Source: Deltaproteobacteria bacterium | GTDB lineage: Bacteria > Myxococcota_A > UBA796 > GCA-2862545 | Direction: 5' to 3' | Length of the DNA stretch: 64,000 nt | Assembly: GCA_006226595.1 (NCBI GenBank) | Contig: SBGP01000081.1 | Coordinates: forward strand, 62,001 to 126,000 | Part shown: in pieces, positions 50,921 through 52,296 of the stretch | Layout: the number at the start of each line of letters is the position of its first letter | Numbering within the stretch: position 1 is the stretch's first letter | Notes under the pieces: generated by a model | Told to the model about the DNA's origin: nothing | Database searches by the model: none | What the model saw: the letters and a program-made list of their open reading frames with translations, nothing else | Program-made: the position numbers and the translations under genes

Positions 50921-51512
50921 GCGCGCCTCCAGGCGGCTGTCGGTAACGCGGTGCCCCGGCCCCGGCCCCGTGGCCGCTGCGGTGCCAGGCGTCGTGCCGG
51001 GTGCGGTGCCAGGCGTCGTACCGGGTTGGGTGCCAGGCTTCGTGTCGGGTGCGGTGCCAGGCGTCGTGCCGGGTGCGGTGCCAGGCGTCGTGCCGGGTGC
51101 GGTGCCAGGCGTCGTGCCGGGTGCGGTGCCAGGCGTGATGCCAGGCGTGATGCCAGGCGTTGTCTCGGCGCGGTGCCAGGCGTCGTGGCGGGTGCGGTGC
51201 CGGGCGTCGTGCCGGGTGCGGTGCCAGGCGTCGTGGCGGGTGCGGTGCCAGGCGTCGTGCCGGGTGCGGTGCCAGGCGTCGTGCCGGGTTCGGTGCCAGG
51301 CGTGATGCCAGGCGTGATGCCAGGCGTTGTCTCGGCGCGGTGCCAGGCGTCGTGGCGGGTGCGGTGCCGGGTTGGGTGCCAGGCGTTGTCTCGGCGCGGT
51401 GCCAGGCGTGGCGCCGGGTTCGGTGCCAGGCGTGGCGCCAGGTTCGGTGCCAGGCGTCGGCACATGCTGCGACGGGGGCGACGCCGACGTCACCCCCGCG
51501 GCATCCGGTACA
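50921..51512. other. 592-base intergenic region dominated by a tandem repeat
   Basis: Between the aminotransferase start and the candidate selenoprotein stop. Apart from the repeat array (50979-51459) it holds only a GC-rich spacer of about 60 bases on one side and 50 on the other. No independent gene, promoter motif or terminator stands out. Confidence 0.7.
50979..51459. repeat. 24-bp tandem repeat array, about 20 units
   Basis: The unit is GCGGTGCCAGGC followed by GTCGTGCCGGGT, itself two diverged 12-mers. Units start at 50979, 51003, 51027, 51051, 51075, 51099, 51123 and so on; a few are 23 or 12 bases, so no reading frame is kept throughout. A block of about 80 bases starting near 51124 recurs 167 bases later at about 51291, including the rare variant GTTGTCTCGGC, so segments were duplicated together. 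Open frames across it (VPGA, TPGT or RHDAW repeats) are by-products of composition. Confidence 0.92.
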
Positions 51513-52169
51513 TCAGCGAGCCTGGGTGAACGTCCGGATCTCTGCGAGCAGCTCTTCGCCGGTGATGTTCTCGTTCCCGCTGGTCGTGCCATGGTTGGTG
51601 GTCAGCACGACTTCCATGGTCGAGCGGTCGACCAGGATGTCGAACCCGCGGGCCTCGGAGAAGGGCGAGTTGTCGAACACGCCGGGCTCCGGCATCGTCT
51701 CGCCGTCTCCGACGCACCAGCCTGCGTCGGTCCCGATGAGTCCGTTGAACTCCTCGCAGTGCTCGTAGAGCCCGTCACGACCCAGGTTGATCTCCTCGAT
51801 CACCCAGATGATGGCCACGCCCTCGGCCTCGATGTCTTCCTCGACGTCTGCCACGCTCCCGGCGTGGATCACACAGGCGGGTCACCAGGCCGGCACCGAC
51901 ACGAACAGCATGTAGTCGTGCGGGCTCCAGTCGTAGCTGGTGTCGCTGTTGCAGAACGCCGTTGCGAGATCGAGGGCGACCGTGGCGCCGTCGGCACGCA
52001 GGGACTGCGCCCAGGAGTACGCCGCCAGCGGCTGGTTCAGTGCCATGGGCTCGGCGGCCTGCGGGTAGTCGCAGTCAGCGGCGCTGTCCGTGAGCAGCTC
52101 GTCGGTGGGGTCGCCACCGCCACCGGCACATGCGGCGAGCAGCAGAAGCGAAGGGGTCAGGAATCGCAA
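51513..52169 (-). CDS. Candidate selenocysteine-containing redoxin lipoprotein (in-frame UGA)
   Basis: The signal MRFLTPSLLLLAACAGGGG gives a lipoprotein. After 95 codons there is a TGA (51884-51882), and the same frame continues open for 122 more codons with a coherent thioredoxin/peroxiredoxin-like sequence. The segment around it is LFVSVPAW-(TGA)-PACVIHAG: UGA stands exactly where the first redox Cys of a C-x-x-C belongs, giving U96-P-A-C99 after a hydrophobic strand and Trp, as in thioredoxin-fold proteins. Later parts (AIIWVIEEINLG, GFDILVDRSTMEVVLTTN) match the strands of TlpA/AhpC-type folds. A hairpin follows at the distance expected for a bacterial SECIS. The alternative is a nonsense mutation or sequencing error; the position in the active site makes that less likely. 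Confidence 0.75.
51851..51884 (-). promoter_or_regulatory. Putative bacterial SECIS hairpin downstream of the in-frame UGA
   Basis: On the minus strand the UGA (51884-51882) is followed by 14 bases, then a perfect 6-bp stem CCACGC / GCGTGG (51867-51862 and 51856-51851) with loop CGGGA. The loop starts 20 bases after UGA and has G in its second position. As I recall, bacterial SECIS elements have an apical loop 16-37 bases past UGA with a G near its start, so this fits. The stem is also within coding sequence, as bacterial SECIS elements are. Confidence 0.6.
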
Positions 52170-52296
52170 GGGACCTCCAGTGCGGCGTCGTGACGACCCG
52201 GCACTCGGTTCGTTACGCGGGGCTGCTATGGTATCGGTCCTCGACCCGCGGCGCAGGTCGAATTGCCGGGATCACAGCTTGCTTCACGTACTCTTC

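Follow-up and report, generated by a model that had tools for sequence, protein, structure and literature searches.

A UGA-containing lipoprotein redoxin conserved in Myxococcota, a highly probable selenoprotein with selenocysteine at its redox motif

A catalogue of 2026 lists 119 families and subfamilies of prokaryotic selenoproteins, and thioredoxin-fold proteins with a UxxC motif are numerous among them (PMC13188914). One catalogued family, 'Redoxin family protein', carries UxxC in a PF08534 domain and is represented by HEU0032618.1 and MBA3499694.1 (PMC13188914, PMC9312934); the 'Prx-like 3' proteins of the GOS survey (PMC2398784) are perhaps the same UxxC family. The main texts of the two papers that deal with 'Redoxin family protein' (PMC13188914, PMC9312934) are silent on lipoproteins and on Myxococcota. 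Other described systems of this kind are the Prx-like thiol:disulfide oxidoreductase selenoproteins (PF00578), with UxxC or UxxU, and the Rcas_1661 family thioredoxin-like (seleno)lipoproteins (NF041057), which are catalogued as 'DsbG-like' with UxxC. No report of selenoproteins from Myxococcota was found in the open-access papers searched. In this study, we analyzed a gene with a single internal TGA in a stretch of 64,000 nucleotides (the window) from contig SBGP01000081.1 of Deltaproteobacteria bacterium assembly GCA_006226595.1, a gene for which the original prediction had proposed a lipoprotein redoxin with selenocysteine at the redox-active site.

The gene occupies positions 51513..52169 on the minus strand of the window. 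Its TTG start codon (52169) follows, at a distance of 4 nt, a putative ribosome-binding site GGAGG recognized by sequence (52174..52178, minus strand), and the frame runs through 95 codons to a TGA (51884-51882) and then through 122 sense codons to the terminal TGA (51515-51513). Translated with the internal TGA as U, the product has 218 residues and begins MRFLTPSLLLLAAC, and P-A-W-U-P-A-C forms residues 93-99, in which codon 96 (51882..51884, minus strand) is the candidate selenocysteine and Cys99 (51873..51875, minus strand), its partner in the putative UxxC redox motif, is invariant in alignments A1 and A3. The N-terminus (52128..52169, minus strand) resembles a signal peptide, with a hydrophobic stretch followed by Cys14 in a lipobox, MRFLTPSLLLLAA-C, that was judged by eye; Cys14 is invariant across the 13 sequences of alignment A1, and the product is an apparent lipoprotein, exported and lipid-anchored via this residue. 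The prediction that one open frame is split by a single TGA, placed exactly at the first position of a C-x-x-C motif (PAW-U-PAC), was confirmed, since this TGA is the only internal one between 52169 and 51513 and Cys stands at the site in the aligned distant relatives. A scan for promoters and terminators found none, and in a comparison of the gene neighbourhood at 20 loci only the UGA-containing gene and its antisense frames recurred, with no conserved partner gene. A 24-bp tandem repeat array of about 16 plus about 4 copies (window 50978-51457) separates this gene from a class-V aminotransferase gene, whose frame stays open across the array.

Comparison with the described families revealed both shared traits and differences. 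The UxxC motif is shared with 'Redoxin family protein', with which the comparison was made by catalogue entry, and so is a similarity to PF08534 that comes only near the threshold (18 against 26.6 bits and E 0.0026 for the window protein; E 5.5e-5 for the best member). With the PF00578 selenoproteins it shares the redoxin fold and a U in the peroxiredoxin threonine column, but the window protein scores below the PF00578 (AhpC-TSA) cut-off (14 against 26 bits). The lipid anchor and UxxC are shared with NF041057; however, this model (cut-off 190 bits) gave no match to the window protein with an E of 1 or lower and matched one of 13 members at E 0.53, and its best hits in the window's genome were other loci, without stops and below the cut-off. 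Searching the NCBIfam models with the window protein gave no match. The original prediction could name no selenoprotein family for such a lipid-anchored redoxin; this needs qualifying, in that UxxC redoxins make up a well-populated class of selenoproteins and the selenolipoprotein family NF041057 was already known. Going by their catalogue and survey descriptions, 'Redoxin family protein' and Prx-like 3 could include relatives of the window family. What is seen here is apparently a UxxC lipid-anchored redoxin family common to many myxobacteria and not yet catalogued.

Homologues interrupted in the same way were recovered by each of the searches. Among 187 relatives, 13 strong homologues were found in 12 genomes (the window's own included), each with exactly one internal TGA. 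When 379 genomes of the phylum were searched with a profile, 19 hits in 16 genomes scored above 260 bits, each again with one TGA, and below 260 bits came a gap, with the next hits all under 90 bits and without a stop. A profile scan of GTDB species genomes gave 16 loci, and because MAGs of Sandaracinaceae, Polyangia and Myxococcales are among their sources, the family can be assigned to Myxococcota. As a result, a total of 21 distinct sequences (the window and 20 others) from at least 16 genomes of several families, in Myxococcota and related MAGs, were considered after merging. UGA occupies the same codon in all 21, within the motif P-A-W-U-x-x-C; none has another in-frame stop, and 121-128 codons follow the UGA. 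Values of dN/dS downstream of the internal TGA were 0.15-0.61 in the 8 pairs computed, a signature of purifying selection on that region. Two UGA-containing copies of the family stand in tandem in one genome (G249, L093 4472-6145), 885 nt apart from UGA to UGA. The codon of Ser82, at -14 from the UGA and outside the hairpin described below, is AGC in 19 of the 21 sequences, far over the expected agreement.

Relatives of a second tier were found to have uninterrupted frames. In the 12 that were aligned W-C-x-x-C is invariant, and a profile-profile comparison put their Cys on residue 96 (probability 99.8, E 5.6e-28, 184 columns). These secreted redoxin domains with Cys (alignment A4), which come from the same phylum and for which no named family was found, are homologous to the Sec family over about 184 columns, and they differ from it in having Cys for Sec, in their long uninterrupted frames (364-570 aa) and in the cis-Pro region, which reads FP[TSD] in the Cys relatives and RGFD in the Sec family. 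Every aligned relative has either Sec or Cys at the position and nothing else, and the second half of the gene aligns with the C-terminal half of the uninterrupted relatives, as expected from the prediction that it is the remainder of a thioredoxin-fold protein. In a tree with the redoxins of the window's genome, a branch with support 95/97 separates the 21 Sec sequences from all the others; several long branches call for caution over the outgroup rather than the Sec group. The branch from the Sec family to the Cys relatives measures 2.1 changes per site, and no Cys ortholog inside the close UGA family was found among the 187 relatives, the 379 phylum genomes or the GTDB species genomes, so the exchange of Sec and Cys is visible only across this long branch.

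AlphaFold, run on 17 sequences (mean pLDDT 86, pTM 0.81, with low values confined to the N-terminal 30 residues), predicts that the domain is of a thioredoxin/peroxiredoxin-like fold. Foldseek (E about 4e-7) and VIA-align (Z 15.4, rmsd 2.5, 149 aligned) returned peroxiredoxins and a thiol-disulfide oxidoreductase, 4nmu, as the closest solved folds. A sequence search of the PDB gave one insignificant thioredoxin hit (E 0.55). A redox function on this fold is very probable, and thiol-disulfide chemistry is somewhat favoured over mainly peroxide chemistry. The protein could instead be a selenoprotein that acts mainly as a lipid-anchored peroxiredoxin-like peroxidase, with Cys99 peroxidatic and Sec96, at the peroxiredoxin Thr position, as its partner. 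The nearest folds, which are AhpC and other peroxiredoxins, agree with such a peroxidase; so does the alignment with the genome's own redoxins, in which the U96 column is both the first Cys of CxxC and the Thr of the peroxiredoxin TxxC, with C99 aligned to the peroxidatic Cys, and so does a nearly invariant Arg174 lying close to the place of the peroxiredoxin active-site Arg, one column off. However, the catalytic motif PxxxTxxC is absent, P-A-W-U-P-A-C with Sec at the place of Thr standing there instead, the AhpC-TSA and Redoxin scores of the window protein fall under the Pfam cut-offs, and the relatives carry WCxxC, as thiol-disulfide oxidoreductases do; we regard a mainly peroxidatic role as unlikely, although the fold keeps peroxide reduction in contention. 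At the usual cis-Pro position ahead of the last strands, the Sec family has RGFD and not FPT, so its chemistry may depart from that of ordinary thioredoxins.

Downstream of the UGA, a bSECIS-like hairpin, CCACGC-CGGGA-GCGTGG (51851..51867, minus strand), combines a 6-bp stem with a 5-nt loop. The hairpin itself stood as predicted, but the distance of 20 bases first given for it applies to the loop, which starts 20 nt after the UGA, and the stem starts at 14 nt. The bSECIS model has a stem of 4-16 bp, a loop of 3-9 nt whose first two positions contain G, a spacing of 16-37 nt between UGA and loop and an MFE of -7.5 kcal/mol or lower (PMC13188914 Fig. 2). All 21 sequences agree with this model in loop, stem, G and distance, each having G in those first two positions, a stem of at least 4 bp and a loop 20-22 nt after the UGA, and 16 of the 21 hairpins, the window's among them at -8.7 kcal/mol for the hairpin alone, also reach the energy threshold, which the other 5 miss. 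The MFE of the single 43-nt window sequence was not unusual against shuffles (z 0.27), so the window hairpin by itself is no evidence, and the evidence is comparative.

Such evidence was provided by the alignment of 17 sequences, in which covariation in the main hairpin scores 0.195 and that in shuffled alignments 0.078, with none of 500 shuffles reaching 0.195 and every slid version of the hairpin scoring lower. One pair occurs in four forms (CG, GC, AU and UA); on the 3' side it involves the third base of an Ala codon, the wobble position, and conservation of the protein does not explain it. Among 90 segments along the gene, the 27-nt one beginning 15 nt past the first UGA base has the strongest excess of stability over synonymous recoding, with the lowest mean z (-1.18) and a summed z of -5.4. 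Two codons within this segment are also fixed beyond what the amino acids need, Ala at +7 being GCC in 16 of 16 and Ser at +9 being only TCG or AGC. RNAalifold, run on a 78-nt alignment, picked another pairing across the UGA at mostly invariant positions, which we do not count as evidence either way, and an Rfam scan of the region gave chance matches only. Three pairing registers, with the loop position kept, were seen among subclades (alignment A2, columns 31-52; window 51848-51869): pairing without a bulge in the window, L018, L019 and L023, a one-base bulge in most others, and a third register in L058 and L093-L095.

The window's genome encodes selA (489 bits), selB (297 bits) and selD (257 bits), all over the cut-offs, and a tRNA-Sec (63 bits, likewise over its cut-off), which ARAGORN also reports as tRNA-SeC with anticodon tca. 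All four genes whose presence the prediction depended on were therefore located. Across genomes, all 16 that carry the UGA gene have selA above its cut-off, compared with 2 of the 18 that have only Cys forms (Fisher p 7e-8, a value inflated by the kinship of the genomes). Of the 16 UGA genomes, 14 also gave a tRNA-Sec match, the two without one being draft MAGs of 260 and 970 contigs. The selD gene of the window's genome (L043, contig C1) has an open frame of 745 aa against 311 model positions, and its product may be fused to another domain; in another genome of the phylum (G344, contig C428 476-1826) a gap of 28 nt separates selA from a tRNA-Sec gene of the same orientation. The window's genome has three further redoxin genes of the PF00578 type, L106, L113 and L114 (contigs C112, C67 and C104), which contain a single in-frame TGA at the first UxxC position, in the contexts HWUPYC, FWUTRC and AWUSHC, respectively, and are probable further selenoproteins.

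UGA can also be read through where Sec machinery is lacking, and the codon might be decoded as Trp or another ordinary amino acid with no selenium. Such decoding is very improbable here, given that the gene has only one internal TGA, that Cys and not Trp occupies the position in relatives, that the UGA tracks selA and that the SECIS-like hairpin is conserved. An origin of the TGA in a sequencing error or a nonsense mutation, leaving a pseudogene or a 95-residue protein and a separate small ORF, has next to no probability: under the standard code the halves are indeed two separate ORFs of 95 and 119 residues, the second with a GTG at 51872, but the same TGA recurs in 20 further distinct sequences, assembled independently, which refutes an error, selection continues past it, and the second half matches the uninterrupted Cys relatives.

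Selenocysteine is the sole reading that we consider credible, because the conservation of the UGA, the Cys relatives, the Sec genes, the coupling of UGA to these genes and the covarying bSECIS all point to it, and from the sequences compared codon 96 almost certainly encodes it. When ribosomes come to the UGA, codon 96, selenocysteine would be inserted by SelB with Sec-tRNA-Sec under the guidance of the downstream hairpin, as we infer from the conservation and covariation seen and from the genome having selA, selB, selC and selD. The protein would be exported and lipidated at Cys14, judging from the lipobox, and in the predicted structure Sec96 and Cys99 take the place of the CxxC of thioredoxin-like proteins. 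Sec96 would most likely serve as the nucleophile on a disulfide or peroxide in the cell envelope, and Cys99 would resolve the intermediate via a selenenylsulfide. The explanation as a whole, a 218-residue selenocysteine lipoprotein redoxin made by hairpin-guided UGA decoding, is highly probable, and the original proposal is supported by the conserved UGA, the Sec genes and the covarying hairpin.

We lean towards regarding these proteins as a separate, uncatalogued family of lipid-anchored Myxococcota surface redoxins, in which Sec is fixed clade-wide, the cis-Pro is replaced by R-G-F-D and the SECIS hairpin has shifted in register with its loop and distance kept. If this is true, the family would represent an envelope redox chemistry not known from Cys relatives. 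Annotation routinely splits selenoproteins, and the 21 sequences, together with the Sec site, the covarying SECIS and the Cys relatives, are enough to build a protein-family model, with which the gene could be recovered from genomes of Myxococcota. Two questions also suit this clade well, namely why Sec has been kept without exception and why a SECIS hairpin can change its register.
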